From Fibrobacterota bacterium (GTDB taxonomy: Bacteria > Fibrobacterota > Fibrobacteria > UBA11236): DNA of 46,419 nucleotides. The position numbers and the translations under genes were made by a program. This document shows positions 16,846 to 45,775 of the stretch, piece by piece; position 1 is the first letter of the stretch; each line of letters opens with the position of its first letter. The notes beneath the pieces are model-generated. The model ran no database searches. It saw only the letters and a program-made list of their open reading frames with translations, and had not been told where the DNA came from. The DNA is taken from positions 1 through 46,419 of the forward strand of contig JAQBPN010000038.1 in the NCBI GenBank assembly GCA_028287505.1, read 5' to 3'.

Positions 16846-17639
16846 TGGGCCGCTTCATCGGGAAATCGATTGTGCTCCGGGTGGCGGCCTTGCTGCTCGC
16901 CCTGGCGTCCCTCACCTCCGCCTCCGCCTCGCCGGAGGCGCTTAAGCGCGCGACCAAGGACTATCAGCAGGCCAATGCGGCCTATGAAAAGACCGACTTC
17001 GCCAAGGCCGGGGATCTTTACCGGCGCGCCATCGATGAAGGCGTAGCGGACTCGCGCCTGTATTTCAACTACGCAAACTGCCTGTTCCGCCTCAACCAGC
17101 CCGGGATGGCCATCCTATATTACGAGAAAGCGCGCAAGCTGGATCCCAACGATGAGGACGTCGCCTATAACCTGCGCTTCGTGAACGCGCAGATCATCGA
17201 CAAGAATCCCGCGCCGGAAAGCAACGCCTTGACCAAGGCTCTCTCCTTCGCCCATTCGGCCTTTTCCATCAACGAAGGTCTGTGGATCTCGGCGGGCCTT
17301 TTCTCGTTGCTATTCCTCGCAGCCATCCTGACCCTCTTCGCGGGCCCGGCTTTCCGGGGCGCCTTGATCGCCGCCATGGTGCTGGCGGGTCTGGCGCTGC
17401 TGGCCTTAACGCCTTCCCTGGCCTTCAAGATCAAGGAACAGGAGACCCTGCAATACGGCATCGTGCTCAAACCCGCCGCGGAAATGTTCAGCGGGCCGGG
17501 CGAAACCTTCCAGGTATTGACCCAGGTTCACGAAGGCACCAAGTTCGAAATCGTGGAAACCCGCGGCGACTGGGTCTCGGTGAAATTGGCCAACGGCAAG
17601 GGCGGTTTCGTGCGCCTGGCGGATCTCGGCAAGGTCTGA
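16842..17639 (+). CDS. batE: BatE-like TPR and SH3 domain membrane protein
   Basis: This is the last gene of the operon. The 265-residue protein has a signal sequence (about 1-29), TPR units (about 35-110: ANAAYEKTDFAKAGDLYRRA, YYEKARKLDPNDEDVAYNLR), two membrane helices (about 145-168 and 171-195) and a C-terminal bacterial SH3-like domain (about 205-262: GPGETFQVLTQVHEGTKFEI, then RGDWVSVKLANGKGGFV). This is the normal BatE layout. The start ATG overlaps the batD stop in ATGA, with a second ATG directly after. SH3-like domains of this kind often bind cell wall or peptides; the ligand is unknown. Confidence 0.92.
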   Translation: MMGRFIGKSIVLRVAALLLALASLTSASASPEALKRATKDYQQANAAYEKTDFAKAGDLYRRAIDEGVADSRLYFNYANCLFRLNQPGMAILYYEKARKLDPNDEDVAYNLRFVNAQIIDKNPAPESNALTKALSFAHSAFSINEGLWISAGLFSLLFLAAILTLFAGPAFRGALIAAMVLAGLALLALTPSLAFKIKEQETLQYGIVLKPAAEMFSGPGETFQVLTQVHEGTKFEIVETRGDWVSVKLANGKGGFVRLADLGKV

Positions 17640-28457: not shown

Positions 28458-28762
28458 CCGCCCCGCTCCCAAAGCCGGGAGGCCGGGCCTTTTTCCCGGG
28501 GTGGATCGGACCCCGACTACCCCAAGGTTCTCCAGGGACGGCTATTCCGGGATACCCCATCCGTCCCCGCCCGGATTCCCAAAAGCGCCGCCGCGCATAA
28601 CCTTATGAAGACCGGCCTCCCGGAACAGCTATATTGGAGTCGCAAACCATTTCGTTTTGGTGACCATCCCAAATATCGGCCAATCCACAACGGCTTAGAC
28701 GTTGATTCTGCTTGCCTTGGAAAATCCTTGCGCCCATAATGGGTTTGGGGAAAATAACATTC

Positions 28763-28791
28763 TTACCTGGTGCGTTTGGGAATGATATAAT
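28763..28791 (+). promoter_or_regulatory. Sigma-70-like promoter for the vWA giant gene
   Basis: A perfect TATAAT -10 box at 28786-28791 is preceded at exactly 17 bases by TTACCT (28763-28768), a moderate -35. Transcription would start near 28798, giving a leader of about 75 bases before ATG 28875. The surroundings are locally AT-rich compared with flanking genes. Confidence 0.55.
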
Positions 28792-28874: not shown

Positions 28875-31800
28875 ATGCATCGCATCGCACCCTTTCGCAG
28901 CAACCCACTTCAACGGACATTCCGCGCCTGGGGAAACTTCGCGGTTACCCTTGCGCTCCTGGCCGGCGCGGCCGGAGTGCATGCCCAGACCAAACGATGC
29001 GATCTGGTGGGACGCGACACGTCCATCACCGGCAATCCCGCGCGCTTCAAGCGATGCCTCGATCTGGCGGCCCTGAGCGGCAAGACCGTGAGGGTACCCT
29101 CCAACGTTACCCGCATCGACAATGACGGACTTTCCCTTTGCAAAGGGTCGTTGCGGCTGGGCGGGGATGCGGACATCATGTTCGTGCTGGATCAGAGCGG
29201 AAGCATGGGAGCGGGATACGCATGGGTGAATACCGCGGTCACTCCCAATGATACCCTTTTCTTCAATGATCTCACGGGATGCGGTAGCTCCACCCTGAGC
29301 GGCACCATCAGCTACCAGGTTTTCGAAAAGATCAACGTCACCAATCCGGTGGTCAGCACGGTCACGATCAATCGATTGGCTTCCGCCACGGGATGCACCT
29401 CATATTCGGGCGACCCATACAAAATCCGGGCCACCGCGGTAAGGCAAGCAATCGATAACATCGCCGCCTCCGGAACCCAAATTTCTACCGCCGGGTTCGT
29501 GGGGTTCGCAGCCAACAACCTGGACTCTGTGAAACCATTGACATTGAACGCGGCGAACATAGCGACGTTGAAGAGCAAGATTTTCATCAAAGAAGAGGGC
29601 GGCACCAACTATTTCAATGCTTTGAGCCGGTCGAAGACATGGCTCAAAGACCCCACTGTGATAAAGACATCCAAGCAGGCCATCGTTTTCATTTCCGACG
29701 GTCGCCCCACTTCTGGAGGAAACACCGCTACCTTGCTGGACGGCACCATGCCGCCCATCTACAGCATTTTCCTGGCTGGCAAGGCCACTCCGGATACGGC
29801 CGTCATGAAATCACTGTCCGACGGCAGTGGCGGAAAGTTTTTCCGCGTTCCGCCCCAGGAGCCGGACAGCGTGGTGAAAATCGTCAAACAGATCCTCAAC
29901 CTGATCCTGAAGGAATACCAGCCGGACAGCGCCACGGTTTCGAACAATACCCTGGCGCCCGTGCAATCGGCCTTCGCGGGGATGCCGGCGGGTTTTGTCC
30001 TGCAACCCGATGGCAGCTGGCTCATGAAGCTAAGCGACATCATCGGACTCAAACCTTTATCCTCCAACCAGATCTCGGTCAAGACCAAGTTCGACGAGGT
30101 CAACGGCGCCGGCGTGGACAACTCGACCATCAACTTCACCATAGCTACGATAGACTCTCCAACGACAACAAACACCAACCTTCCCCTTGGCAATCCGTTC
30201 GGCGTGGCCTGTTACGATAAGTCCACCCTGGCCATCCGGAAATCGGACGGAAGTAGGCCGCCCTTCTTCACGGACGCGCAGACGGCTTATCGCTTGCGGG
30301 TCAGGACCGCTCCCGGACCTTTGGGCTCCATCACGGTTCCTTCCCGCACGGCCTTGAAGACCGATGCGGAGACTCCCGTTTTCGCGCCTCCCGCGTCAAT
30401 CACGGTGGACAGCCTGGTATTCGACGGGACCAACCCCTTCCTGGTGCTTTCCGCCGCCAGGACCAATGGGAACGGCACGCTGGAGTCCAACCTGTACGAC
30501 TCCATCCTCGTCTCGTGGGTCCATCCCCGCGACGCACAGGACGTGGCTTCGGACTTTATGGTGGTGCGCGCCGCCACCCAGCAGGCCAAGGTCCGTTTTT
30601 CCGGGACCAACGGCGGACCCGTCACCACGCAATACCTGGTGGACGCCACCAAGGTTTTCATAGTGGTTGAAGATCAGCCTGCCGATCCGCGCCGGACCTA
30701 TACCGCGGTGGTGACTTCGGAAAAGTTCGGCATAGACCGTGAGACCGTCATACTCACCGAACAGCCGGGGGGATCGGGGATCTTCCTGGGACAACTGACC
30801 ATCTCAAACCTGGCCAAGACCCAGGCCGATAACCTTCTGCAAGTGTCCGCGGGCGGCGATCAACTGCGCGTCGTCTATAAGGATCAGGTGGACGGGGATT
30901 CCGCCACCGCCACCGCCGGATTCGATGAAAACGTGCAGGAGGCCCCCACCCTCGAATTCACGGACGCTTCCGGAGCGCCTTTGGCGCCCAACGCGGTCTG
31001 GTCTCCCGCCAACGGCAAACTGTTCCTGAGCTACAGCGACGACTATGCCTATGGCCGGGTGGCCAGCAAGCAGGTCACCCTCACCCTGGTCAGCAAGAAA
31101 TACGATGCCGCCATCGGCACCGACCATGAAAAGGTCACCGTCAACATGACCGCGGTTCCCAGCGGCACCCGCGCCACCTGGATCGGGTCCATCGATCTCG
31201 CGGACGCCTTCCCCTCCACGGACAATAACGGCGCGGCGGAAACCCGCTTCCGGGGCGAAGCCACCGTGGTCGTGAACGCCCATGACAATGTCGGCGTCCA
31301 GCAAACCGCCACCGTCTCGGATTTCCTGGTCATCGCCTATCCGGATTCCCAGGCCACCATCCAATGGCGGTTGGACACCACGGTCACTCCCAAGCCCAAC
31401 GAAGGTTTGGTGATTACCGTCAACGATCAGACCTTCTCCCTGAATCAGAAGGACACCGCCCTGGTCTCAGTAGCCTGCACCAAGTCCGGGGACAGCGTGG
31501 CCAACTTTCCGGCCATCGAAGGCCCTACGGTCATTTCGGGAGTGTACACGAGCGGCACCCTGGTGAAGGATGAAGGCGTACCCATCCTTTCGGACAAATT
31601 CCTCTCCTGCCTCACCACGGACCAGATCCGCATCCGCTACGTGGATCCCGTCTACGGCACGTTCACGGAACTCCTCATCAATGAAGTCGGCAAGCCGGAA
31701 GCCAGTCCGGCCGGCCGCAAGTTCATCACCAGCGAACTCGTCACCCTGTCTTCGAGCACTCCCGGGGCGCTCATCTATTACACCACGGACGGCTCCAAAC

Positions 31801-34800
31801 CCATTCCCGGCGTGAGCCTCCTGTATACGGATCCCATCCGCATCAGCGTGACCACTACGCTCACCGCCATAGCCGTGAAACCGGGCTTCAAGGACAGCAA
31901 GGTGATGACCCAGGTTTACACCAAGGAGTTCGTGGCCTCGCGCCTGGAAATCCTGGATGAGAACGGCAATGCCATCCCGGGAGGATTCATCACCGGGGCG
32001 GCCAAGGCCGTGCGCATCAAGCTGGTAACCACCCAGGACAACCTGGCATCGGCTTCCGCCGACGCATCCACCAAGGTCGCCGGCGATAAGGAGCAGGTCA
32101 CCTTGGCCAACAACGGCTCGCTCGGGGACGCCTTCGAATTCGGACAGCAGGTTTCCCTCAAGCATCCCTTCACGGGAGTCTCGGGCAACGATACCATCGA
32201 GGCCATCGGGACCGATACCCTGATCGTCCATTGGGTCAACCCTTACAACGCCGGCGACGTGGCCGCCGATACCCTGATCATCAAGCCCGCAATCGTGGAT
32301 GCCCAGGTCTATTTCTCCACCTCCGAGAACGGCCCCAAGATTACCGAATATCCCGTGGGCCAGGACAGCATCTACATCGTGGTCAAGACCCGGCCGCGCG
32401 ATCCCACCTTGACCTATACCGTTACGGTAACCTCCAGCGACGGCAGCACGGACAAGGAAGTCCTGGTCCTCAAGGAACTTTCCCCCGGGGTATTTTCGGC
32501 CAAGGCTCCGGTAGGCACGGGACCCAAGACCGCGAGTGACGGAACCATCCAGGTGGCGGCCGCGGGAGATCAATTGACGGCGGTGTTCACCGACCCGGTC
32601 TACAAAACGGACTACCGCGGCGACGCCGGCTTCGCCCAGCAGGTTCAGGAATCCGCAAGCCTGGAATTCATCGATGAAACCGGCAAGGTGGTGCCCGCGA
32701 CCGACGTCTGGAGTCCCGTCAAAGGCAAGGTGTACCTCCGTTTCTCGGACGATTGGAACCCCGGCATCAGCTCGGGTATCCAGACCAAGACCGCTCGCCT
32801 CCAGTTGATCAACCGCAAGTCCGGCGACTCCGTGGGCGCCGACGTCGAAACGGCCACGCTCAAACTCAAGGACTCGACCGCCACCCGCGGGATCTGGGAA
32901 GGCTCGCTTACCCTGGTGGATAAGGCGCCCGCCAAGGCCGGCAACGACACTGTGGAAACCTATTTCCGCGGCGAACTGCGCGCGGCGGTGACGCCCCACA
33001 ACAACGCGGGCCAACCCACCAGTCCGGATGCGGTGGACAATCTGGTCATCGCCTATCCCGATCAGCCGGCTGAAATCGTGATCCGGGACACCTCCGGCAA
33101 GAGCGTGGTGCGCGAGACCGACAAGGTGGACGTGGTGATCCGCGACCAGCTGTTCACCAAATCCGGCGATGCCTCCATCAACGCCTTCGTCACCTGCGCG
33201 CAATCCGGGGACAAGGTCGCCAGCGTCACCCTTGTCTGGGACGGCACGGCCTATGTCATCAAGCCTCCTCTGGACAAGGGTGAATTGAGCGGAACCACCG
33301 TGGACAAGAACGACGTCTTGCTGCTCTGCCGCGATTCGGACGTGCTGACGGTGACCTATGTGGATCCCGTCTACCTGACGCCCCGTACCGCGGACGTGAA
33401 GTGGAGCGACGATACCAAGGCGCGGATGTACTACGTCTCCTCCAAAGACGGGTCGGTCATCACCTCCGCCACGGACGCCCTGAGCACGAATTTCCGAATC
33501 ATCGTGGAAGGCAAGAGCCCCTCCCGGGACAAGGTCGACACCATCGACGTGATCCTGACGACGGCCCAAGGCGAGAAGGAAACCTTCCGCGCCGTGGAAA
33601 CCGGAATCTTTACCGAGAAGTTCGAGGTGCTGGCGGACTTCAGGTTCCAGACCGGAAATCCCTCCAAGGAAAACAAGATGGTGGAGGCGCGCATCAACCC
33701 CGGAAACCGGATCAACCAGATCCTGGTGGCCGGTACGGCGGTCGTTGCCGGGGAAACCGTCAGCGCGGACCTGTCCCTGCTTTCCAGCTATGACCTGGTG
33801 GCGAGGGCCTATATCAAGGATGAGGATGAGGATGGACGCGCCGACCGCGCCTATTTCGTATTCGACCACAAGCTGCCCATCCTGCCGGCCAGCCTGGATG
33901 AGGTGTTCTGGAACCAGGAGGGCGCGGATTTCAAGCGCCAGGCCGACCATTCCATGTTGTCCTTCAAGCCCGGTTCCGATTCCACCATCGTGGTGGCCGA
34001 TTTCACGAAATCGCAGTTCGGCGCCTTCCTCACGGACGTCGCGGAAGGCCGGCCGGCTCCTTATGGCCGTTTCCCGGACGATAACCTTTTCGGGGGACAG
34101 AAGGTGACGTTGGAGGATTCGGTGGGGCCCGTGGTGGTTACCGCAATCAAGCGGCCTTCCAACCTCCAGGTCTACACCGTGGGCCTTACCGAAAAGCGCT
34201 TCAACCCGGACACGCTGGTGATCACGGTATCGGAAAAGATCAAGACGTCGCAATCCTTCGACGATTTCCTGCGCTTCTCCAAAGGTTGCGCGGAATACGC
34301 GGATTCGAAGCCGGTCAAACTGCAGAGCCAGCCGGCCGTTTCGGCGGACGGGCTCACCTACGTGGTCATCGTCGACAATGCCCCCGACTCCCCTTCCCCC
34401 CTGGTCAAGGACTGCATCTTCCTGGAAGTGGATGGGCGCTATACCGATTTGAAATTCAACATTCCCGGGCGCTTGGGCGCGGAGATTTCCGGCGCAAATC
34501 CCGCTCAGGTTATCCGCGAGTTCCGCGGCTTTCCCCCGGTCGCGGGTTTGGATCCCACCAAGCCGGGCTTCGTGATAAGCACCAACGATCCTCGCAACGA
34601 TCCCAATACCGGTTTCAGCCATCCTACCGGAACCGACGGCAATTTCGAAATCCTCTGGATCCCGCCGTATGGAATGGCCGACAACGATCCGGTAGGTTCC
34701 CTCAATGATATCTCCAAGGACTTCCTGAATCCCACCGCCGGGGAGCGCACCCGGGAGAACTCGTATCCGCGCCCGCTGCCCCCGGGAATCAGTACCGTCC

Positions 34801-35081
34801 AGGTGATCACCTCTTCGGCGTACAAGGCCCAGATCCGCATCTTCGACAACCTGGGGCATTTCGTCCGCGCCATGAACCAGTCTTTCGGGACCAATGGCGA
34901 GCTCTTGAACACGAACCGGACCACCATCAACGGTCAGGCGAGCTTCCTGGTCTGGGACATGAAGGATGCAGATCACAACCTGGTAGGCCAAGGGGTTTAC
35001 GTCTGGAAGGTGTCCTTCCTCTTCCTGGAAAAGACCAAGAAATCGGAAATCATGTACACCCGCACGGGCGTGGTCCGCTAG
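28875..35081 (+). CDS. Giant secreted vWA protein with repeated beta domains and shared C-terminal module
   Basis: The protein is 2068 residues. I chose ATG 28875 because a GGAG precedes it and a signal peptide follows (1-37, ending GVHA before QTK). A vWA domain runs from about 98 to 350 with an intact metal site, LDQSGSMG (Asp106, Ser108, Ser110), and ISDGRPTSGG later; it carries a Cys-containing insertion after the first strand. Next come a beta-domain module (about 520-930), a chitobiase C-terminal-like domain (about 942-1020, IYYTTDGSKPIPGVSLLY), a second copy of the module (about 1100-1510) and a partial third. An EF-hand-like loop D-E-D-E-D-G-R-A-D lies at 1649-1657, and a C-terminal FlgD-like module ends in GQGVYVWKVSF and YTRTGVVR. 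The likely role is adhesion or matrix at the cell surface; the function is unproven. Confidence 0.85.
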   Translation: MHRIAPFRSNPLQRTFRAWGNFAVTLALLAGAAGVHAQTKRCDLVGRDTSITGNPARFKRCLDLAALSGKTVRVPSNVTRIDNDGLSLCKGSLRLGGDADIMFVLDQSGSMGAGYAWVNTAVTPNDTLFFNDLTGCGSSTLSGTISYQVFEKINVTNPVVSTVTINRLASATGCTSYSGDPYKIRATAVRQAIDNIAASGTQISTAGFVGFAANNLDSVKPLTLNAANIATLKSKIFIKEEGGTNYFNALSRSKTWLKDPTVIKTSKQAIVFISDGRPTSGGNTATLLDGTMPPIYSIFLAGKATPDTAVMKSLSDGSGGKFFRVPPQEPDSVVKIVKQILNLILKEYQPDSATVSNNTLAPVQSAFAGMPAGFVLQPDGSWLMKLSDIIGLKPLSSNQISVKTKFDEVNGAGVDNSTINFTIATIDSPTTTNTNLPLGNPFGVACYDKSTLAIRKSDGSRPPFFTDAQTAYRLRVRTAPGPLGSITVPSRTALKTDAETPVFAPPASITVDSLVFDGTNPFLVLSAARTNGNGTLESNLYDSILVSWVHPRDAQDVASDFMVVRAATQQAKVRFSGTNGGPVTTQYLVDATKVFIVVEDQPADPRRTYTAVVTSEKFGIDRETVILTEQPGGSGIFLGQLTISNLAKTQADNLLQVSAGGDQLRVVYKDQVDGDSATATAGFDENVQEAPTLEFTDASGAPLAPNAVWSPANGKLFLSYSDDYAYGRVASKQVTLTLVSKKYDAAIGTDHEKVTVNMTAVPSGTRATWIGSIDLADAFPSTDNNGAAETRFRGEATVVVNAHDNVGVQQTATVSDFLVIAYPDSQATIQWRLDTTVTPKPNEGLVITVNDQTFSLNQKDTALVSVACTKSGDSVANFPAIEGPTVISGVYTSGTLVKDEGVPILSDKFLSCLTTDQIRIRYVDPVYGTFTELLINEVGKPEASPAGRKFITSELVTLSSSTPGALIYYTTDGSKPIPGVSLLYTDPIRISVTTTLTAIAVKPGFKDSKVMTQVYTKEFVASRLEILDENGNAIPGGFITGAAKAVRIKLVTTQDNLASASADASTKVAGDKEQVTLANNGSLGDAFEFGQQVSLKHPFTGVSGNDTIEAIGTDTLIVHWVNPYNAGDVAADTLIIKPAIVDAQVYFSTSENGPKITEYPVGQDSIYIVVKTRPRDPTLTYTVTVTSSDGSTDKEVLVLKELSPGVFSAKAPVGTGPKTASDGTIQVAAAGDQLTAVFTDPVYKTDYRGDAGFAQQVQESASLEFIDETGKVVPATDVWSPVKGKVYLRFSDDWNPGISSGIQTKTARLQLINRKSGDSVGADVETATLKLKDSTATRGIWEGSLTLVDKAPAKAGNDTVETYFRGELRAAVTPHNNAGQPTSPDAVDNLVIAYPDQPAEIVIRDTSGKSVVRETDKVDVVIRDQLFTKSGDASINAFVTCAQSGDKVASVTLVWDGTAYVIKPPLDKGELSGTTVDKNDVLLLCRDSDVLTVTYVDPVYLTPRTADVKWSDDTKARMYYVSSKDGSVITSATDALSTNFRIIVEGKSPSRDKVDTIDVILTTAQGEKETFRAVETGIFTEKFEVLADFRFQTGNPSKENKMVEARINPGNRINQILVAGTAVVAGETVSADLSLLSSYDLVARAYIKDEDEDGRADRAYFVFDHKLPILPASLDEVFWNQEGADFKRQADHSMLSFKPGSDSTIVVADFTKSQFGAFLTDVAEGRPAPYGRFPDDNLFGGQKVTLEDSVGPVVVTAIKRPSNLQVYTVGLTEKRFNPDTLVITVSEKIKTSQSFDDFLRFSKGCAEYADSKPVKLQSQPAVSADGLTYVVIVDNAPDSPSPLVKDCIFLEVDGRYTDLKFNIPGRLGAEISGANPAQVIREFRGFPPVAGLDPTKPGFVISTNDPRNDPNTGFSHPTGTDGNFEILWIPPYGMADNDPVGSLNDISKDFLNPTAGERTRENSYPRPLPPGISTVQVITSSAYKAQIRIFDNLGHFVRAMNQSFGTNGELLNTNRTTINGQASFLVWDMKDADHNLVGQGVYVWKVSFLFLEKTKKSEIMYTRTGVVR

Positions 35082-35109
35082 CGGGCGCGATAAACACAGG
35101 TTCCCTGCC

Positions 35110-35144
35110 GCGCGGCGCCCTCCCCGGGGCGCCGCGCTTTTTTT
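35110..35144 (+). terminator. Intrinsic terminator after the vWA giant
   Basis: An 11-bp perfect GC stem (GCGCGGCGCCC at 35110-35120 with GGGCGCCGCGC at 35127-35137) has a six-base loop and is followed by seven T residues (35138-35144). It lies 28 bases after the stop codon, so most transcripts of the giant gene probably end here and the sigma-factor gene has its own promoter. Confidence 0.92.
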
Positions 35145-35294
35145 GGGGACTTGGGGAACGACTGCGTTCTTCGACGAAGCGGCGATGCTTTTCGCGCGAT
35201 TTCCAAATCCGGGGCGGGCTCCCGCTCCGTATCTCCTGCATGCGGATGCTATATTTTCGCATTGAAGGACCGGCTCCATGCCGATTTGGTCTCA

Positions 35295-35876
35295 ATGCAG
35301 AACGACGGACCGGATTTGATTGAATGCATGGAGCGGATTGTCCGCCGCGACGCAAGGGCGTTGGAGTTCCTTTATGATCGCTTTTCCAACGTCCTTTTCC
35401 GGTTCGTGCTCGCCTTCGTCAAGAGGAGGGAGGACGCGGAGGATGTCCTCGGGGAAATCTTTTTCCAGGTCTGGAGGAAGGCGGAAACCTTCGATCGGGA
35501 CAAGGGTTCCGTCTACGGTTGGCTGCTTTCCATCGCCCGCTCGCGGGCCATCGACCGGCTTCGTTCCAAGCAGTTCAAGAACGACCGCATGGAGGATCCC
35601 GGATTGCTGGACATGGATGACCTGGCGGGAGCCTCCTCCGTCAGCCCTCTCGATCTGGCGGAGCGTTCCATGATGATGAAACATGTCCGATCCGCCATGG
35701 ACAGCATTCCTTCCGACCAAAGGCGCGTGATCGAAGAAGCCTATCTCGGCGGTTTTTCCCAATCCCAGGTGGCCAACAGGCTGGGCCTGCCGCTGGGAAC
35801 GGTCAAGACGCGCATGCGGGACGGCATGCGCACATTGCAATCCATATTGAAGGTTGGAGGCGCCGCCGATGGATGA
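35295..35876 (+). CDS. ECF-type RNA polymerase sigma factor
   Basis: This is a 193-residue sigma-70 family factor of the extracytoplasmic-function class. Region 2 (about 20-90) includes FVKRREDAEDVLGEIFFQVWRK and GWLLSIARSRAIDRLRSK. Region 4 (about 130-185) includes LPSDQ-type IPSDQRRVIEEAYLGGFSQSQVANRLGLPLGTVKTRMRDGM-like helix-turn-helix sequence, seen in short segments such as AYLGGFSQSQVANRLGLP. There is no region 1.1 or 3. ATG 35295 is the first plausible start, with a weak ribosome site. A TATATT at 35250-35255 could be a -10. It overlaps the anti-sigma gene by eight bases, the usual sigma/anti-sigma pairing. It probably senses an envelope cue and may drive the flanking giant genes; the targets are inferred. 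Confidence 0.94.
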   Translation: MQNDGPDLIECMERIVRRDARALEFLYDRFSNVLFRFVLAFVKRREDAEDVLGEIFFQVWRKAETFDRDKGSVYGWLLSIARSRAIDRLRSKQFKNDRMEDPGLLDMDDLAGASSVSPLDLAERSMMMKHVRSAMDSIPSDQRRVIEEAYLGGFSQSQVANRLGLPLGTVKTRMRDGMRTLQSILKVGGAADG

Positions 35877-36753
35877 TCTGACCTTCCGCGAGCTTTGCCT
35901 GACCCAGGCCCTTGGGTTGCTGGATGAAAAAGGACAGCAGGAGCTTTTCCTCGCTTTGGAACACGCCGACGAAAAACGGTTGGAGTTCTTCGCCGAAACC
36001 GTTTCCGCCGCCCGGCATCACCTCCAGGATGCGCAGGCTTCCGGTCCGTCCCCTCATGTCAGGGAACGGGTCATGGCCATGGCCAAGTCGGAAGCCTTGC
36101 CCGGCAATCCCGGGCAGCCCGCGCCTAAACCCGTACCGGGATTCCTTTCCAGGCTGCGGAACGCCTTGGACTCGGCGCCTTCCTGGTTGAAGGGACCCGG
36201 GCCGGCCATCGCTTTCGCGTCCCTGGCTTTCGCGGCCGGTCTATCGGTCCACGACCTTTTCAACCATGGCCGACCACCGGCGGTCGGGGCGCGAGCCGCG
36301 GCGCCGGATACGGCCCTGCTGGCCTCGCAATCCCGCATCGTCGCCCTGGAAGACTCGCTTTCCAGGCAGGAAGCCCTGCTTGCCGTGCTTTCCTCCCGGC
36401 AATTGCAGGTCGCCCGGCTCAAGGGTCAAGGAGAAGGGCGCTCGGGAATCGGCAGGGTCATGTGGGACCCGCAAAAGCAGCGGGGAATCCTGCAAGTGGC
36501 CAATCTTCCGCCCGCCCCCGCCGGCCAGGTCTACCATTTATGGATCCTGGTCGATGACAAGAAAGATCCCTGCCTCCGGGCCGGCTCGTTCAAAATCCGC
36601 CAGGCATCCCTGTCCGGAGACCTCTTCCGTTTCGAAAGCGAAGAGTCCATGGGCCAATCCAAACTGCTCGGCTTCGAGGTAACCCTCGAATCAAAAGTCG
36701 GACATCCCCATCCCAGCGGCCCCAGCCTGCTCCGCTCGGAAACCCTGATGTGA
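35869..36753 (+). CDS. Anti-sigma factor, RskA-type C-terminal domain
   Basis: The 294-residue protein is encoded directly after the ECF sigma gene, starting inside it (ATGGATGA overlap) behind a GGAGG. The N-terminal ~75 residues are helical (LTQALGLLDEKGQQELFLAL) and would bind the sigma factor. A single, weak membrane helix lies at about 111-130. A short coiled-coil-like segment (about 150-180) leads to an extracytoplasmic anti-sigma-K (RskA) domain at about 196-290, with GILQVANLPPAPAGQVYHLW and an LRAGSFKI strand. There is no zinc-binding HxxxCxxC motif. Release of the sigma factor by proteolysis is the usual mechanism for this family. Confidence 0.88.
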   Translation: MDDLTFRELCLTQALGLLDEKGQQELFLALEHADEKRLEFFAETVSAARHHLQDAQASGPSPHVRERVMAMAKSEALPGNPGQPAPKPVPGFLSRLRNALDSAPSWLKGPGPAIAFASLAFAAGLSVHDLFNHGRPPAVGARAAAPDTALLASQSRIVALEDSLSRQEALLAVLSSRQLQVARLKGQGEGRSGIGRVMWDPQKQRGILQVANLPPAPAGQVYHLWILVDDKKDPCLRAGSFKIRQASLSGDLFRFESEESMGQSKLLGFEVTLESKVGHPHPSGPSLLRSETLM

Positions 36754-37071
36754 ACAGGCACTGGCCCAAAACCGGCCGAAAACCGCTTTCCAGCCACCGC
36801 AAAAAACGATTCCCCATGAAGGCGTGAACAGTTTCGGGGCTTCGGGGCCCTTTCCCGGCCACTGGGGCCGGATTGTCCTCACCTGGAACCCCACTTTATA
36901 CTTAGATTTCCGGACCGAGGAATTAAGATTTGGCCGTTCGTGGGTTTAGCGCTGAACATACCATTTTCGTTTTTTGATGACGCTTTCCCGCCAACGTATT
37001 TTGGGCATTTCTCATATATTAAATTGGCGTTCGGGAGGCCCGTCCTGGAAACATCTGAAAAAGGATTCAAC
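36754..37071 (+). other. 318-base intergenic leader upstream of the fibro-slime gene
   Basis: No gene or strong hairpin terminator was seen after the anti-sigma gene. The first ~120 bases are GC-rich with G and C runs, and the remainder turns AT-rich. A sigma-70-like promoter is placed at 36873-36902, leaving a leader of roughly 160 bases. A second AT-rich patch, CATATATTAAATT near 37013-37025, could be an alternative -10 with a shorter leader. AAGGA at about 37061 is the ribosome site for the GTG start. Confidence 0.6.
36873..36902 (+). promoter_or_regulatory. Sigma-70-like promoter for the fibro-slime gene
   Basis: TTGTCC (36873-36878) and TATACT (36897-36902) are separated by 18 bases. 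Each differs from the -35/-10 consensus by few bases. It lies 170 bases upstream of the GTG start at 37072. Which promoter is used, and by which sigma factor, is unknown. Confidence 0.45.
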
Positions 37072-40000
37072 GTGAAGTCCAACAACTTCGTTCATATCGC
37101 TTTCGTATTGGGATTGACCATGCTCGCCATGGATGCATCCTACGGACAAGCGCCTCCCACCACGCTGAGACTCACGTCCAAGGTCCGCGACTTCCGGGAG
37201 CTTCCGGACGCCAAACTACCATCCTCCGTTGCCAACTATCATCCGGACTTCAACACCTTCAACAGCTGCGATCAGACCGGTTACGTGGATGCCGTCATCC
37301 AGACCACCGGAGCGCTGGACACCGCCAACTTTCCCAACGACAACCGCAATCCCAAGCTCATCAACGCCCGGGCCGGCTGCTTCACCAGCTTCGCCCGCTT
37401 CGACGAATGGTATAACGACAAGGACACGGAAACCAACCGTCCCTTTCTCTATGATCTGGTTTTCCAGCGCACGCCCGCCGGCATGTATGAATACCAGAAC
37501 AGCAACTTCTTCCCGATGGACAACGATTCCCTCACCAGAACGGATCCCGTCACCAATCAGAAGATCACCAAGAATCTGAAGGGCCAGAACCTGGTCAGCT
37601 TCGGACATCTCAACACCGGCGCCAACGCCGCCCACAACTTCGGCTTCACCATGGAGTTCCACGCCAACTTCACCTACATCGCCTCAGCCGATCCCGCCAA
37701 GCAGCAGATTTTCACCTTCACCGGCGATGACGATGTCTGGGTGTTCATCAACGGAAAGCTCGCCATCGACCTGGGAGGCGTCCACGCCGCCCTGTCCAAG
37801 ACCATCACCCTGAACGCGGCGCAAGAGGCCAACCTGGGATTGGAGAACGGCAAAAGCTACCTGCTCGATTTCTTCATCGCCGAACGCCACATCACCCAGT
37901 CGAATTGCCGCATCACCACCAGCCTGGTGCTGGAAACCCAGAAAGTCGCCACCCCGGTGGCCACTCCCGGCACCTCCAGCTTCAATTCCCAGCTGGCCGT
38001 GACTCTGTCCTCCGCCACTCCGGACGTCAAAATCTATTACACCACCAATGGCAACGCCCCGGACAGCAACAGCACGCTTTACACGGGCCCCATCCCCATC
38101 ACCACCAGCACCACCGTGAAAGCCATCGCCTATAAGATCGGCTGGACCAAGAGCGACGTGATGACGGCCGTCTATACCAAGAACTTCGTCGCCTCCACCC
38201 TGGACATCCTCGATCAGAACGGCAATCCCCTCTCGGGCGGATACATCACCGAACTCAACTCGGCCTACACCGTCAAAGTCACCACCACCCAGGCAGGTCT
38301 GGCTTCCATCACCCCGGGCGCCACCACCCAGGTTGCCGCGGATCAGGAAACCCTGACCTTGACCAATCCCTTGGCGCAGGGAGACAACTTCCTCTATTCC
38401 GGAACCTCCCCTTTCCAAATCACCACCGCCACCCTGAACAATTCCAAGACGGAAGCCACCGCTTATGATTTCCTGACGGTGAAATGGGTCAACCCTCTGG
38501 ATTCCCGCGACACCGCCAGCAAGACCGTGGTGGTCCGCCCCGCGCCCAGACAGGCCCGCGCCTATTTCTCTTCCAATGTGAACGGCACCGATACGCTCGA
38601 TCAATACACGGGCACCGAAACGAAAATCTTCCTCATCGTCCTCGACCAGATGCTTCCTTCGGGCGTAACGCCCACGGTGACCCTGGAGACCACTCCCAAG
38701 GTGACCAGCCGCGGCAAGGACACGGAAACCTTCAACTTGACGGCCATTTCGGCCGGCAAGTACAGCGTCGCCGTCAACGTGGATCTTGTCGGCGCGGCCA
38801 GCGTGGTCGGCGACAAGTCGCTCCAGTTGGCGCTCGGGGATCAAATCCTCGGGAGCTACAAGGATCCGGTGGACGGGGATGTGGCGTCCGCCAATGCCGG
38901 TTTCGGCATCGCTCCCAATCTCGATGCGTCCCTGCAGTTCACGGACAAGAACGGCAACGTGCTTCCCAACGGTTTCTACTACAGCCCGGCGGAAGGCTTC
39001 CTGTATCTGACCTATAAGGATGACTGGGTAAACGGCAGCATTCCGAAGAAGACCGTGATGCTGGTCATCGGAAACAACGGCGGCAAGGCCGGCGCGGACT
39101 CGGAAGTCACCTTCACCCTGGACCTGACCAGCCATGCCGGCTCCACGGGCGAATGGAAAGGCTCTTTTCCCCTGAAGGATCTGCCCACCATCACCAAGCT
39201 GAACGGCACCGCGGAAACCTATATCCTGGGCGAAGTCCATGCCTCCGCCCCCGCGCACAACAATGTCGGCGTCGCCTCCCTGTCGGCCACTGACGACCTG
39301 CTGGTGGCCTTCGGCAACCAGGATCCCGTCATCGGAATCGAAGGTCCCGGCGGTCCCGGAGTCCAGATCAACCGCGATGACCCCGGGGTCAAGATCACCA
39401 TCAAGGACCAGAGCATTTCCAGTGCCCGCGATACCCTGTACGCCACCTTGAGCTGCACGGAGAACAAGGACGTGGTAGTGAACGTGATGCTCATCGAAAA
39501 GGCCGACAAGCCCGGCGAGTATGAGTCGGTCATCCTTTCCAAATCGGAAGGCGCATCGGTGGTGGACGGGGTGCTTCAATGCCAGCCCAAGGACTTCATC
39601 AAGGTCACCTATAAGGATCCGGTCTACGGAGACGTTAAGGAAGTCCAGGTCCTGATAGACAATCCCGTGACGTCCAAGCTGTACTTCTCGTCCAAAGCGG
39701 ACGGCAGCGACGAAATCACGGCCGTCAACGATCTGGACGCCGACTTCTTCTACGTGGTCATCCTGGCGCGCAGCCCGGACGTGGCCAAGGTGGACAATCT
39801 GCAGGTCACCTTCACCACTCCGCAGGGCGAAACCGAAACCTTCACCGCCGTGGAAACCGGCGTGTATTCGCAAAAGTTCATCGCCAAGGTTCCCTTCGGA
39901 TTCGTCACCACCTCGCCGGTGGCGGGCAATTCCATGCTGGAAGGCAAAATCACCGCCAAAGAAGTGAACAACTACGTTACCGCCATCGGCACGGCGACCG

Positions 40001-41295
40001 TCGACAACGCCACCGTCAAGGCGCCCATCGATCTGGTGGCCGGCTTCGCTCCCGTGGAGAAAGCCTACATCAAGGACAGCAACGGAGACGGCATGGGCGA
40101 CAAGGTCTATATCGTGTTCGAGAAGAAACTGAGTCGCCTACCCACCACCCTGAGCGCCCAGTGGAACGACTCCACCTCGGCGACCAAGATTGCCCCTAAG
40201 CTTTCCTTCCTCAATGCGGATTCGACCGTGGTGGTCGCCGACTATTCCGGCGGCCCTTTCCCGGCCGGTCTCACCGCCGCCGGGCCGGTAGGGAACCCCA
40301 GGGCCTTGCTGCCCAACGATGCGCTCTTCAAGGGCCAAAAGCCGATCATCGAAGATTCCATCGGCCCCATCATCCTCTCGGCCATCAAGCATCCTTCCAA
40401 TCTCAACAGCCTGGTGGCCAACGACCCCAACTACAACCTGGATACGTTGATCGTCACCTTGTCGGAACCCCTGGAACCGGCAAACTTCAAGACCATGCTG
40501 AAGTTCTCCACCAGTTGCGACGACTACGCCAACGCCAAGACCATCGAGGCGGTCAATACCCCCAATCCCACTCCGGGCAAGCCCACGGAATACATCGTCA
40601 TCGTGAACAATGCCATTTCCACTCCCTTGGCGGGCAACTGCCTTTTCCTCAACGCCGACCCCGGCCCCAACCAATATGTGGATATGCACAAGAATCCTCC
40701 GCCCGAATACGGTGTGGTGCTCCTGGGCTTCAACCGCGATCAGGTCATTCAGGGTTTCCGCGGCTTCCCGCCGGTAGCCGGTCTCGATCCGAACAACCCC
40801 AACTTCCAGGTGGCCGTGCAGGACTCCCGCGATTCCACCAAGGGCGGCTATGCCACCAACCGCGATCCGTCAAAGCCCTGGGAAGTGCTTTGGATTCCTC
40901 CCTATGGCTTTACCGAAGCCGGCGGACTGGACCCGTATAAGGCCACGTTGAACGACCTTCCCGGCGGAACGAAGGAGACTGCCACGCCCGTCAGGTTGCC
41001 TCCCGGAGTCAGCGCCGTGCAGGTGGTGAGCACCACGGCCTATATCGCCCACATTGCCATCTTCGACAATTATGGAAACTTTGTGCGCAGCTCCATCCAG
41101 GTGTTCGGCGGCAGAGGCGAATTGCAGAATCAGGCCCGCACCGTGCCCAAGGGTCTGGTCAGCTTCCTGTACTGGGACATGAAGGACAAGAACGGCCAGT
41201 TGGCCGGCCAGGGCGTTTACGTCTGGAAGGTCTCCTTCGAGTTCAAGGGCGGCAAGCAGGAAATCCGCTATACCCGCACCGGCGTAATGCGCTGA
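37072..41295 (+). CDS. Giant secreted fibro-slime domain protein
   Basis: The protein is 1407 residues from GTG 37072, which follows AAGGA and opens a signal peptide (about 1-25, ending ASYG before QAPP). Longer upstream frames lack one. A fibro-slime domain (PA14-like, known from Fibrobacter and myxobacterial surface proteins) covers about 65-290, with GDDDVWVFINGKLAIDLGG at 218-236. Then follow a chitobiase C-terminal-like domain (about 295-375, IYYTTNGNAPDSNSTLY), one copy of the beta-domain module found twice in the vWA giant (about 440-960), an EF-hand-like loop D-S-N-G-D-G-M-G-D (1002-1010) and the same C-terminal module (about 1090-1407, GQGVYVWKVSFEF, ending YTRTGVMR). It is probably a carbohydrate- or substrate-binding surface protein. 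It ends at an intrinsic terminator. Confidence 0.9.
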   Translation: MKSNNFVHIAFVLGLTMLAMDASYGQAPPTTLRLTSKVRDFRELPDAKLPSSVANYHPDFNTFNSCDQTGYVDAVIQTTGALDTANFPNDNRNPKLINARAGCFTSFARFDEWYNDKDTETNRPFLYDLVFQRTPAGMYEYQNSNFFPMDNDSLTRTDPVTNQKITKNLKGQNLVSFGHLNTGANAAHNFGFTMEFHANFTYIASADPAKQQIFTFTGDDDVWVFINGKLAIDLGGVHAALSKTITLNAAQEANLGLENGKSYLLDFFIAERHITQSNCRITTSLVLETQKVATPVATPGTSSFNSQLAVTLSSATPDVKIYYTTNGNAPDSNSTLYTGPIPITTSTTVKAIAYKIGWTKSDVMTAVYTKNFVASTLDILDQNGNPLSGGYITELNSAYTVKVTTTQAGLASITPGATTQVAADQETLTLTNPLAQGDNFLYSGTSPFQITTATLNNSKTEATAYDFLTVKWVNPLDSRDTASKTVVVRPAPRQARAYFSSNVNGTDTLDQYTGTETKIFLIVLDQMLPSGVTPTVTLETTPKVTSRGKDTETFNLTAISAGKYSVAVNVDLVGAASVVGDKSLQLALGDQILGSYKDPVDGDVASANAGFGIAPNLDASLQFTDKNGNVLPNGFYYSPAEGFLYLTYKDDWVNGSIPKKTVMLVIGNNGGKAGADSEVTFTLDLTSHAGSTGEWKGSFPLKDLPTITKLNGTAETYILGEVHASAPAHNNVGVASLSATDDLLVAFGNQDPVIGIEGPGGPGVQINRDDPGVKITIKDQSISSARDTLYATLSCTENKDVVVNVMLIEKADKPGEYESVILSKSEGASVVDGVLQCQPKDFIKVTYKDPVYGDVKEVQVLIDNPVTSKLYFSSKADGSDEITAVNDLDADFFYVVILARSPDVAKVDNLQVTFTTPQGETETFTAVETGVYSQKFIAKVPFGFVTTSPVAGNSMLEGKITAKEVNNYVTAIGTATVDNATVKAPIDLVAGFAPVEKAYIKDSNGDGMGDKVYIVFEKKLSRLPTTLSAQWNDSTSATKIAPKLSFLNADSTVVVADYSGGPFPAGLTAAGPVGNPRALLPNDALFKGQKPIIEDSIGPIILSAIKHPSNLNSLVANDPNYNLDTLIVTLSEPLEPANFKTMLKFSTSCDDYANAKTIEAVNTPNPTPGKPTEYIVIVNNAISTPLAGNCLFLNADPGPNQYVDMHKNPPPEYGVVLLGFNRDQVIQGFRGFPPVAGLDPNNPNFQVAVQDSRDSTKGGYATNRDPSKPWEVLWIPPYGFTEAGGLDPYKATLNDLPGGTKETATPVRLPPGVSAVQVVSTTAYIAHIAIFDNYGNFVRSSIQVFGGRGELQNQARTVPKGLVSFLYWDMKDKNGQLAGQGVYVWKVSFEFKGGKQEIRYTRTGVMR

Positions 41296-41430: not shown

Positions 41431-42111
41431 TCAGGCTCGGGTATTTTCCGCCAGGCTTTTCAGGAACAAAGCCACCGCCTTGCCCCGATGGCTCAGGACA
41501 TCCTTGACATCTCCGGGCAACTCCGCAAAGGTCTTGTCCTGGCCCAGAGGAATGAAAAGCGGGTCATAGCCGAATCCACTCTCTCCCCTTTCCTCCCGGG
41601 TGATTTCCCCTTCGCAAACACCCTCGAAGAAGGCCGCCTCGCTTCCGGGAACCAGATAGCACAGCACGCAACGGAAGCGCGCCTTGCGGTCCTGGCGGCC
41701 TTCCATGGCTTTCAGGAGCTTGGCCCGGTTGGCGGCGGCCTGGGGCAGGGGTTTTCCCGCCGCATCGGTCCAAATCGGCCGGGATTGCCCTGCCGATCCC
41801 GGACCGGAGTCCAAAGCGGCGTAGCGCGCGGAATACACTCCGGGCGCGCCTCCCAAAGCATCCACCTGCAAGCCGCTGTCATCGGCCAATACGGGATGGG
41901 GACTGACTGCCGCCAGCGCGGCAGCCTTGAGGAAGGCGTTGGCGACGAAGGTATCGCCGGTTTCCTCCACCTCCCCGGAGAATCCCAGGTCCGCGGGCAA
42001 AAGCAAAGTGAAGCCGGCCGGAGCCAGCAGGGATTGGAATTCCGCCACCTTGCCGCGGTTGCCGGTGGCAATCACCAAGGGACGGAAAGGGATGAGCGGA
42101 GCGGAGGACAT
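41431..42111 (-). CDS. rdgB: Non-canonical purine NTP pyrophosphatase (RdgB/HAM1)
   Basis: This enzyme hydrolyses XTP, dITP and ITP to monophosphates, cleaning the nucleotide pool. The protein is 226 residues. Family motifs are ATGNRGKVAEF (15-25), LADDSGLQVDAL (75-86), GVYSARYA (91-98), SGFGYDPLF (178-186) and LSHRGKA (206-212). An insertion of about 20 residues (100-122, Gly/Ser/Pro-rich) separates the SARYA motif from the helix with NRAKLLKAM, making it somewhat longer than the usual ~200 residues. It starts 32 bases after the leuS stop, probably as the second gene of a leuS-rdgB unit. Confidence 0.95.
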   Translation of the reverse strand: MSSAPLIPFRPLVIATGNRGKVAEFQSLLAPAGFTLLLPADLGFSGEVEETGDTFVANAFLKAAALAAVSPHPVLADDSGLQVDALGGAPGVYSARYAALDSGPGSAGQSRPIWTDAAGKPLPQAAANRAKLLKAMEGRQDRKARFRCVLCYLVPGSEAAFFEGVCEGEITREERGESGFGYDPLFIPLGQDKTFAELPGDVKDVLSHRGKAVALFLKSLAENTRA

Positions 42112-42143
42112 GGCGCGCTGATTCTCCCGGAAACCGGCTCCGG

Positions 42144-44702
42144 CTACTTCGGCTTGACCACGAAGTTGACCAGCTTGTCGGGGACGACGATCACCTTGAT
42201 CACCTCGCTGGATTCCAGATAAGCTTTGAACTTGGGATGCGTTCGCGCCAACTGCTCCAGGTCCTGCCGGGAGGTGCCTTTGGCCACCTCATGCTCCACG
42301 CGCACCTTGCCGTTGGTCTGGAAGACCACGTTGACCGAATCCTCCACCGTGAGCGCTTCGATATGCACGGGCCAAGGCGCGTAAGCGAGACTTTCCCCAT
42401 GCCCGAGGATTTCCCAAATCTCCTCGGCGATATGGGGCGCGAAGGGCGACACCAGCTTCACCAGGATTTCCGACGTCTCCCGGTACGCGGCGCCGCTCTT
42501 CTCCAGATCCTCGCCCAGTTCCCCCACGAAAATCATCAGCTGGGAAATGGCGGTGTTGAAACGCAGGTTCTCGATGTCTTCCGTGACCTTCTTGATGGTC
42601 TGGTGGGTACGCTTGACCAGATGGGCCGGAGGCGCATCGTCCGTGATGCGGACCTGGACGCGATCGTCCCCGACGGTGGCGCGCCATACCTTGTTGAGGA
42701 AGCGCCACAAGCCTTCGATGCCGGCCGTCTGCCAGGGCTTCTGGCGTTCCAGGGGGCCCATGAACATTTCATACAGGCGCATGGAATCGGCGCCGTAGCG
42801 CTCCACCACGTCATCGGGATTGACCACATTCCCGCGCGACTTGGACATCTTCTCGCCGTCCTCGCCCAGGATCAGACCCTGGTTGACCAGCTTCTGGAAC
42901 GGCTCGGAGGTGGAGACATGCCCCAGATCGAACAGGACCTTCTGCCAGAAGCGCGAATACAGGAGATGCAGCACGGCGTGTTCCGCCCCGCCGATGTAAA
43001 GATCCACCGGCATCCAATATTTCTCGGCCTCGCGCGACCAGGGTTCCTTATCGTTGTCGGGATCGATGAAGCGCAGGAAATACCAGCTGGATCCGGCCCA
43101 CTGCGGCATGGTGTTCAGCTCCCGGCGGCCGGAATGATCCGCATTCGCACCCTTATATTCCAACCACTCCTTGGCCTTGGCCAAAGGCGGCTCGAAGGTT
43201 CCCGTGGGCCTGTAGTCTTCCATTTCCGGCAAGGTCAGGGGCAGCTCCGAATCGGGAATGGACTCGACGCCCTTGGCCGTATGCACCAGCGGAAAAGGCT
43301 CGCCCCAATAGCGCTGACGGGAGAAGAGCCAATCGCGCAGCCGGTATTGCACCCGCGCCTTGCCCAATTGCTTCTCTTCCAACCATGCGATCATTTTCGC
43401 CTTGGAGTCCTCCACCCGGAGGCCGTCGAGGAATCCGGAATTCACCAGCACGCCGTCCCCGGTGAAAGCTTCCTTGGAAACGTCTCCGCCTTGGATCACC
43501 TCCACGATGGGAAGGCCGAACGCCTTGGCGAATGCGTAGTCGCGCTCGTCATGGGCGGGCACGGCCATGATGGCGCCGGTGCCGTACCCCATCATCACGT
43601 AGTCGGAAGTCCAGATGGGAATCCTGCCGCCGGTCACGGGATTGATCGCGAACGCGCCCGTGGCCACGCCGGTCTTGTCCTTGTCCAGGCCGCGCTCCAG
43701 ATCGGATTTGCTGCCGGCCGCCTTGCGATAGGCTTCCAGCGCCGCCTTTTGGCCCGGGACGGTGATGGATTCCAGAACCGGATGCTCCGGAGCCACCACT
43801 ATGTAGGTCGCGCCGAACAGGGTGTCCGGCCGGGTGGTGAAGACCACCAAGGGTTCCTCCCGGCCTTCCACCTGGAAATGCACTTCGGCGCCGGTGGATT
43901 TGCCCACCCAGTTCTTCTGCATCAGCTTGATGGAATCCGGCCAATCCAACCCATCCAGATCCTTGATCAGGCGCTCGGCATAGGCGGTGATGCGCAAAAC
44001 CCATTGCCGCATGGGACGGCGCACGCAAGGGAAACTCCCCCGCTCCGACTTGCCGTCCATGACTTCCTCGTTGGCCAGCACGGTGCCGAGTTCCTGGCAC
44101 CACCACACGGGGTTTTCGGAAATGTACGCCAGCCTCTGGGAATCCCGGTACCTGCGGATTTCCGCCTCATCCTTATCCTTGAGGCCGGTAGGGATGGGAA
44201 GCTTCGCGATGGGCATGGCCTTGTCGGCGGCGGCATCGTAATAGCTTTCGAACAGCTGCTTGAAGATCCATTGCGTCCACTTGTAGTAGGCCGGATCGGT
44301 GGTGCTGATCTCCCGATCCCAATCGTACGAGAAACCCAGGGACCGGGTCTGACGGCGGAAATTATCGATGTTCGACAGGGTGGTCACGGCCGGGTGGGTG
44401 CCCGTCTTGATGGCGTGCTGTTCCGCGGGCAGACCGAAGGCGTCCCAGCCCATGGGATGGAGCACGTTGAACCCGCGCATGCGCTTGTAGCGGCACACGA
44501 TGTCCGTGGCCGTCCAGCCTTCCGGATGGCCCACATGGAGCCCGTTGGCGGAAGGGTAGGGAAACATGTCCAGGGCGTAGAACTTGGGTTTCAAGGCGCC
44601 TTGCGCGTCCTTCCCCGGCGCCATGGTGGCTTTGAAGGTCTTGTGCTGGAGCCAATACTGCTGCCATTTGGGTTCGATCGATTTGGGAATGTACCTGGAC
44701 AC
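42144..44702 (-). CDS. leuS: Leucyl-tRNA synthetase
   Basis: This enzyme charges tRNA-Leu. The protein is 852 residues, a normal length for bacterial LeuRS. The class I signature HVGH (56-59, in [14 protein letters not shown]) and KMSKS (about 615-620, in [12 protein letters not shown]) are intact. The CP1 editing domain is present, with [12 protein letters not shown] and an [14 protein letters not shown] stretch. I choose GTG 44702, which gives the family N-terminus [17 protein letters not shown] and has AAGG upstream; a TTG at 44741 would add 13 unconserved residues. It is divergent from the aldo/keto reductase, with a shared 92-base gap. Confidence 0.97.
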
Positions 44703-44794
44703 GGCTTGCCTTGTTCGTGGGTTAGGCCCAAAAGATAGCAAGGTTGGGGGTGATTGTTACCTTTCCGGAGTTGGGGGAAATCCAGGGGGTACTG

Positions 44795-45775
44795 ATGAAG
44801 CAGCGTAGTTTTGGAAAGACGGGTTTGCGGGTGTCCGAAGTGGGTTTCGGAGCCTGGGCATTGGGCGAATCGTGGTGGGGCAAGCAGGATGATGCGGAGT
44901 CCATCAAGGCCCTGCACCGCGCCGCCGAGCTCGGAGCCAATTTCATCGACACCGCCCAGGTCTACGGCGAAGGCAAAAGCGAGTCCGTGATCGCGCGCTT
45001 CCGCAAGGAATGGAAGGGCGACCTGATCGTCGCCACCAAGACGCCCCCGGAAGCCGGCGCCTGGCCGCCTTCCCCGTACGACGCTCCCGAGGTTTCCTAT
45101 TCCCCGGCCTACCTGCGCGCCAACGTGGAGAAGCGCCTCCGCAGCCTGCAAACCGACTGCATCGATCTCCTCCAATTGCACACCTGGACGCGCGCCTGGA
45201 ACAAAGACCCCCGTCCCCTGGAAACGCTTCGCCAGCTCAAGCAGGAAGGCAAAATCCGTTTCTTCGGCGTGTCCACTCCCGAGCACGATCAGAACAGCGT
45301 GGTCGATCTCATCCGCAACAACCACGTCGACTCCGTGCAGGTCATCTACAACATACTGGAACAGGAACCGGCCGCCGAAATCCTTCCCGCCGCCAAAGAG
45401 CACGGGGTGGCCATCATCGTGCGCATGGCTTTCGACGAAGGCGCCCTGACGGGGAAATTCTCCCGGGACACGGTTTTCCCAAAAGGCGATTTCCGCGCGG
45501 ACTATTTCCGCGGCGAGCGCTTGGGCCAAGTGGTGGATCGCGTCGACAAAATCAAGGCTGACGTGGAAGGTTCGGGGTATACCCTACCCCAGGCCGCCCT
45601 GAAGTTCGCCATGTCCCATCCGGGGGTAAGCACCGTGATCGCCGGCATCCGCAACGTGGCGCAGGCGGAAATGAACCTTGCCGTTTCGGATCTGCCTGAG
45701 CTGCCCCCGGCGCTTATGCAAAAGCTGCGGGAGCATAATTGGCGCAGGGGGATTTGGTACGGGGATCACTGGTAG
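44795..45775 (+). CDS. Aldo/keto reductase
   Basis: This is an NAD(P)H-dependent aldo/keto reductase with a (beta/alpha)8 barrel, 326 residues. The catalytic tetrad is complete: Asp52 and Tyr57 in IDTAQVYG, Lys82 in VATKTPP and His129 in LLQLHTW. The C-terminal cofactor-binding part is seen as TVIAGIRNVAQAEMNL. ATG 44795 follows a GGGGG and begins MKQRSFGKTGLRVSEVGFGAW, the standard N-terminus; the open frame upstream to 44744 is not conserved. The physiological substrate cannot be told. A large inverted repeat begins six bases after its stop. Confidence 0.95.
   Translation: MKQRSFGKTGLRVSEVGFGAWALGESWWGKQDDAESIKALHRAAELGANFIDTAQVYGEGKSESVIARFRKEWKGDLIVATKTPPEAGAWPPSPYDAPEVSYSPAYLRANVEKRLRSLQTDCIDLLQLHTWTRAWNKDPRPLETLRQLKQEGKIRFFGVSTPEHDQNSVVDLIRNNHVDSVQVIYNILEQEPAAEILPAAKEHGVAIIVRMAFDEGALTGKFSRDTVFPKGDFRADYFRGERLGQVVDRVDKIKADVEGSGYTLPQAALKFAMSHPGVSTVIAGIRNVAQAEMNLAVSDLPELPPALMQKLREHNWRRGIWYGDHW

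Follow-up and report, generated by a model that had tools for sequence, protein, structure and literature searches.

Two giant proteins with a common body and exchangeable heads on either side of a sigma/anti-sigma gene pair in a Fibrobacterota genome

The locus

The window analysed here, a stretch of 46,419 nucleotides (contig JAQBPN010000038.1, C77) from a Fibrobacterota genome of 6.07 Mb (G000), carries four plus-strand genes which encode, in order, a giant protein with a vWA head, an extracytoplasmic function (ECF) sigma factor, an RskA-type anti-sigma factor, and a second giant with a fibro-slime head. All four open reading frames (ORFs) had been placed correctly by an initial annotation made from the sequence letters, and the starts it chose for the giants (ATG at 28875 and GTG at 37072) are those conserved in relatives. 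The genomes compared are draft metagenome-assembled genomes (MAGs), the relatives with similar loci being named Fibrobacteres or Fibrobacteria MAGs, and operon context was examined at selected loci. The genes and protein regions are as follows.

28875-35081, plus strand: vWA giant (signal peptide, vWA head, truncated body copy, full body, C-terminal tail)
29166-29920, plus strand: vWA domain region of the head, from Pfam VWA_2 and alignments; limits approximate
30261-31670, plus strand: truncated extra body copy of the vWA giant (model positions 104-591)
31683-35078, plus strand: full body of the vWA giant, including the C-terminal tail (34776-35078)
35295-35876, plus strand: ECF sigma factor, SigK-like; ORF open from 35151, with 35295 as the likely start from comparison with G005
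35869-36753, plus strand: RskA-type anti-sigma factor; ORF from 35854, first ATG at 35869
37072-41295, plus strand: fibro-slime giant (signal peptide, fibro-slime/PA14 head, body, C-terminal tail)
37633-37926, plus strand: Fibro_Slime (TIGR02148) domain from profile matches, overlapping PA14
37933-41292, plus strand: body of the fibro-slime giant (CHB_HEX_C, two beta-repeat types, conserved C-terminal third, tail at 40990-41292)
ending at about 28.1 kb, minus strand: nuo genes, left flank of the four-gene block
41431-45775: HAM1/rdgB-like gene, leuS and aldo-keto reductase gene, right flank; names read from translations

The common body

The C-terminal bodies of both giants, about 1,100 residues long, are collinear: residues 949-2084 of the vWA giant align with residues 331-1451 of the fibro-slime giant at 39% identity over 1,160 columns (BLAST, E = 0), a match far beyond chance. 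The initial annotation had claimed the same domain order after the different heads, which is borne out by the collinear body and falls short in two respects. The vWA giant carries, between head and full body, an extra truncated body copy (residues 466-951, 35% identical to 419-904 of the fibro-slime giant), and the CHB_HEX_C_1 domain lies in mid-protein in the vWA giant (961-1028) and beside the head in the fibro-slime giant (346-409).

By profile-profile comparison, a CHB_HEX_C/Fn3-associated domain, two types of repeat and a conserved C-terminal third can be told apart in the body. Repeat s1 resembles s3 (E 4e-8), and s2 resembles both s4 (E 3e-11) and s5 (E 2e-8); the tail presumably resembles Ig/FlgD domains. 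A model of the body built with AlphaFold on 10 sequences was all-beta (mean predicted local distance difference test score, pLDDT, 69; predicted template modelling score, pTM, 0.35), and Foldseek searches with this model returned chains of Ig-like domains with good E-values and low whole-chain template modelling (TM) scores. The body is read here as a flexible stalk of tandem Ig-like beta modules. A chain of beta-sandwich domains likewise presents the head in multi-Ig adhesins and grappling hooks, such as the ice-binding adhesin 4p99 and Aureispira GhpA (9fly/9flw), which the body model matched at E-values in the 1e-10 range with whole-chain TM-scores of 0.10-0.12; no sequence relation between these stalks and the body of the giants was detected, and a search of solved structures with the body sequence gave a meaningful match for the CHB_HEX part alone.

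Outside this family and a neighbouring one, the 1,100-residue body was not found in full, and the rumen-type genome G011 gave only a weak match; the contig scans used a six-row body alignment, a 15-row alignment being too diverse. Three other contigs of the window's genome (C35, C78 and C39) encode additional, shorter proteins containing the end of the body, headed by a vWA domain on C35 (901 residues) and a DUF4114-like domain on C78 (1,015 residues). The neighbouring family of the same order, represented by G010 (L062-L085, L099, L100), holds about 25-30 long stalk paralogs with many heads, several of them 2,000-3,300 residues long with repeated partial bodies and FG-GAP heads.

The heads

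The vWA giant matches VWA_2 with an E-value of 1.5e-6 (29.2 bits against a cut-off of 27), and the D, S, S, T and D residues of the metal-ion-dependent adhesion site (MIDAS; DxSxS...T...D) are invariant in an alignment of 14 vWA heads. The fibro-slime giant matches TIGR02148 with an E-value of 4e-27 (94.4 bits against a cut-off of 45) and PA14 with 1.4e-6. The labels given in the initial annotation, a metal-dependent adhesin and a PA14-like lectin, are consistent with these domains and with the invariant MIDAS residues, and it can be envisaged that the vWA heads would bind a ligand through the intact MIDAS. Fibro-slime proteins are known to bind cellulose in Fibrobacter succinogenes (PMC4668043), and attachment of the surface to polysaccharide is the recognized role of the family (PMC4668043, PMC6851124, PMC4704652); by analogy, the fibro-slime heads described here may bind polysaccharide. 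The F. succinogenes proteins carry the same fibro-slime/PA14 head, whereas in the present family this head is one of several mounted on an 1,100-residue body.

Altogether 59 heads, each attached to this body or to parts of it, were gathered from G000-G010. They comprise 14 vWA, 14 Fibro_Slime, 11 'EDTVR', 7 'VGGVT', 6 DUF4114-like and 3 FG-GAP heads together with four singletons, one of which is nidogen-like. No significant Pfam or PDB match was obtained for the 'EDTVR' head (about 300 residues with a GDDAA motif; L048:8645-9589 and 10 more) or for the 'VGGVT' head (about 200 residues; L081:666-1334 and 6 more), so that two of about ten head kinds lack any such match. By eye, the 'EDTVR' head resembles an alpha/beta enzyme-like domain. 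The vWA head has an insert of about 70 residues (29208-29430, plus strand), situated after the DxSxS loop and before the first helix, in which an 'SGDP' stretch and one cysteine are invariant in the 14 heads and which may be an extra binding arm; an AlphaFold model of this head was set aside (pLDDT 34, four alignment rows).

Exchange of heads on the body

The initial annotation had spoken of exchangeable heads, and such exchange is seen both in place, in another genome of the same genus, and repeatedly across the family. At the nuoA/rdgB-leuS site of this congener (G001), the first giant carries a fibro-slime head on a long body of the vWA type, which is 56% identical to the vWA giant of the window over 1,628 columns and falls inside the vWA-body clade with a support of 100; a vWA head of this type is absent across the G001 genome in a search at E <= 1e-30. 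A maximum-likelihood tree of 46 bodies requires at least 16 changes of head label, the minimum possible being 8; the count comes from one quick tree under a simple model. Both Fibro_Slime and EDTVR heads recur in distant body clades. The G001 head is closest to those of G004 and G005 (49-51% identity) and 47% identical to that of its own neighbour; local gene conversion from the neighbouring giant was considered as its source and, by this small margin, is not favoured. Elsewhere, G002 possesses a single body with an EDTVR head, situated away from this locus, and G005 (L051:6086-15213) has tandem fibro-slime giants beside rdgB, the upstream one bearing a different head subtype.

It is put forward tentatively, as a real possibility, that a common stalk exported by the type IX secretion system (T9SS) has been equipped combinatorially with about ten kinds of head by repeated recombination, and that replacement in place changes the binding specificity from one species to the next. 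Since the heads are recombined onto a common body, the family would diversify its binding without altering export and anchoring. A head swap between species predicts a changed binding target, and a stalk with interchangeable heads offers a direct handle, as single heads can be expressed and screened for ligands. Little is known of how non-rumen Fibrobacterota attach to substrates.

Probable export and surface display

As read from the sequence, each giant starts with a hydrophobic leader. Of the Fibrobacterota genomes tested, 12/12 had SprA, the outer-membrane translocon of the T9SS, and 7/7 had a PorU-like C25 peptidase, the genome of the window included in both cases; neither had a match in 14 control genomes. 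A model of the last 100 residues, the family-specific tail, matched 12 places in the window's genome, and T9SS export has been proposed for enzymes of F. succinogenes (PMC6851124). T9SS export of the giants is therefore taken as likely. The proteins would then be exported via Sec and passed through the T9SS, the tail pathway would anchor them at the cell surface, and the stalk may extend from there with the head facing outward. Cargo proteins of the Porphyromonas gingivalis and Flavobacterium johnsoniae type, described by TIGR04183, likewise combine a signal peptide, an Ig-like C-terminal tail and T9SS core genes; in contrast to these, the tail of the giants scores under the cut-off of that model, and secretion is here a prediction.

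The sigma/anti-sigma pair

The ECF sigma factor has regions 2 and 4, its closest NCBIfam model being PRK09646 (SigK) with a score below the cut-off, and the anti-sigma factor matches RskA_C (E 4e-13). The following features bear on the expression of the pair and of the giants.

28712-28742, plus strand: candidate sigma-70-type promoter 1 of the vWA giant, TTGCCT-17-CATAAT; conserved in G000, G002, G003, G004 and G005
28763-28791, plus strand: candidate sigma-70-type promoter 2 of the vWA giant, TTACCT-17-TATAAT; conserved in the same five genomes
35110-35144, plus strand: terminator-like hairpin and T run 3' of the vWA gene, read directly from the sequence
35206-35234, plus strand: sigma-gene promoter motif, AATCC-N17-CGTATCT, the sole strict copy in the window
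36960-37071, plus strand: conserved upstream region of the fibro-slime giant with a TATATT-type -10 at 37015; matches G005 and partly G003

According to the initial annotation, the four genes form one regulated surface system, in which an envelope signal would free the sigma factor from its RskA-type anti-sigma factor and drive both giants. The adjacency on one strand speaks for this arrangement, as does the precedent of the mpt83-sigK-rskA cassette, in which a SigK/RskA module controls a neighbouring surface-protein gene (PMC7509140). On the other hand, the order of the four genes occurs in this genome only among 168 genomes of the phylum, an outcome which the initial annotation had itself named as refuting its reading. 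Homologs of the anti-sigma factor were found in 6 of these 168 genomes, in seven copies; the sigma and anti-sigma genes are adjacent in 7/7 copies and overlap in the window, yet a giant adjoins the anti-sigma gene in the window copy alone (1/7, some of the other contigs being short, 4-9 kb). In G001, G003 and G004 the same locus consists of the giant pair separated by a gap of about 0.3-0.4 kb with no sigma pair in it, compared with 2.0 kb in the window; in G002 the vWA gene abuts rdgB, and in G005 the vWA gene and the fibro-slime genes are parted by a contig break. In G001 and G003, neither an anti-sigma nor a sigma homolog was detected at the thresholds used, though the giant pair is present. 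As regards the wider synteny in G003 (L049:1-4000), the vWA giant is preceded by homologs of window positions 13497-17639, so that the nuo block, which occupies about 17.6-28.1 kb in the window, is there either absent or relocated.

The transcription signals point the same way. Between the vWA and sigma genes stands a terminator-like hairpin, and hairpins of a similar kind lie behind the first giant of G001 and of G004. The sigma-70-like boxes of the vWA promoter are conserved regardless of the sigma pair, being kept in G003. A shared-word search before the sigma genes yielded the motif MATCC-N16/17-CGTATM, which stands 90-190 bases before the reference start in 7/7 homologous sigma genes, against a chance expectation of <=0.00135 per region (Markov shuffles), a rate somewhat flattered in that the motif was found on the same sequences in which it was counted. 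The shared motif suggests autoregulation of the sigma gene; a scan of the same regions for ECF promoters of the GGAAC/CGTC type gave nothing consistent. The motif occurs in 0/9 giant promoters, in strict or looser form, and a genome-wide search returned 6 matches versus 4 for the reversed control, only the sigma gene's own site lying clearly before a gene start, for which reasons no regulon is claimed. A one-mismatch copy on the minus strand (28551-28577, between the nuo and vWA genes) is attributed to chance, 24 such copies being found and 20.7 expected. Taken with the distribution of the pair, these promoter and terminator features make a single system under common control very improbable, and the sigma factor is probably not the switch of the giants.

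A narrower role could be imagined, in which a recent insertion of the pair was followed by recruitment of the fibro-slime giant alone, for instance by read-through from the autoregulated sigma operon into the gene about 320 bases downstream. In favour of this, that gene lies downstream of the sigma operon and is read in the same direction, and inspection of 36754-37071 by eye, with no scan, revealed no terminator-like hairpin; however, the gene has kept the upstream region common to G005, where another giant precedes it, and the sigma motif is missing before it, so that such recruitment is judged unlikely.

It should also be considered whether the head swap or the sigma insertion might have arisen in assembly, the named genomes being MAGs and the long paralogous bodies, repeated within genomes, favouring mis-joins. 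Yet both flanks of the window continue the synteny of the genus, and the insert is bordered by a conserved terminator on one side and a conserved upstream region on the other. Furthermore, the head and body of G001 share no more than about 50-56% identity with other copies examined, leaving no near-identical stretch to cause a mis-join, and head changes recur in several genomes. An artefact of this sort is given hardly any credence.

Interpretation of the locus

Terminator, promoters, motif and distribution lead to a reading of the pair as an autoregulated module between two independent transcription units. Each giant would form its own unit with a housekeeping-type promoter, and the pair would have come between them in this lineage only. 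In the reading considered probable, the locus as a whole is a conserved one of T9SS-exported adhesins with a common Ig-like stalk and recombined heads, between which a self-regulated SigK/RskA-like pair has been inserted. Against it stand the following points: the AlphaFold model of the body is moderately confident at best; the standard T9SS tail model TIGR04183 gives 15.6 bits, below its cut-off of 23; and the motif test bears on direct control only, so that the sigma factor, once inserted, may have taken on a role that is lineage-specific or indirect. A sigma factor between two giants looks like their obvious regulator and is here probably a bystander, which counsels caution in deducing regulation from adjacency in a single genome.

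Related sigma/anti-sigma pairs

The pair of the window resembles the SigK/RskA pairs of Mycobacterium and Yersinia in its sigma factor, which is closest to SigK, in the RskA_C anti-sigma factor and in the overlap of the genes; it differs from them in that no MPT83-like target gene is seen alongside and that the neighbouring giants lack the motif. Relatives of the pair elsewhere lie beside a gene for Cu/Zn superoxide dismutase or close to genes for a cyclopropane synthase and a hydrolase, a gene context that suggests a role in the envelope or in oxidative stress. A second conserved type of SigK/RskA pair is encountered in relatives (L055, L056, L058 and L059), in all cases with the sigma promoter motif and mostly with genes for a cyclopropane-fatty-acid-synthase-like protein and an alpha/beta hydrolase nearby.

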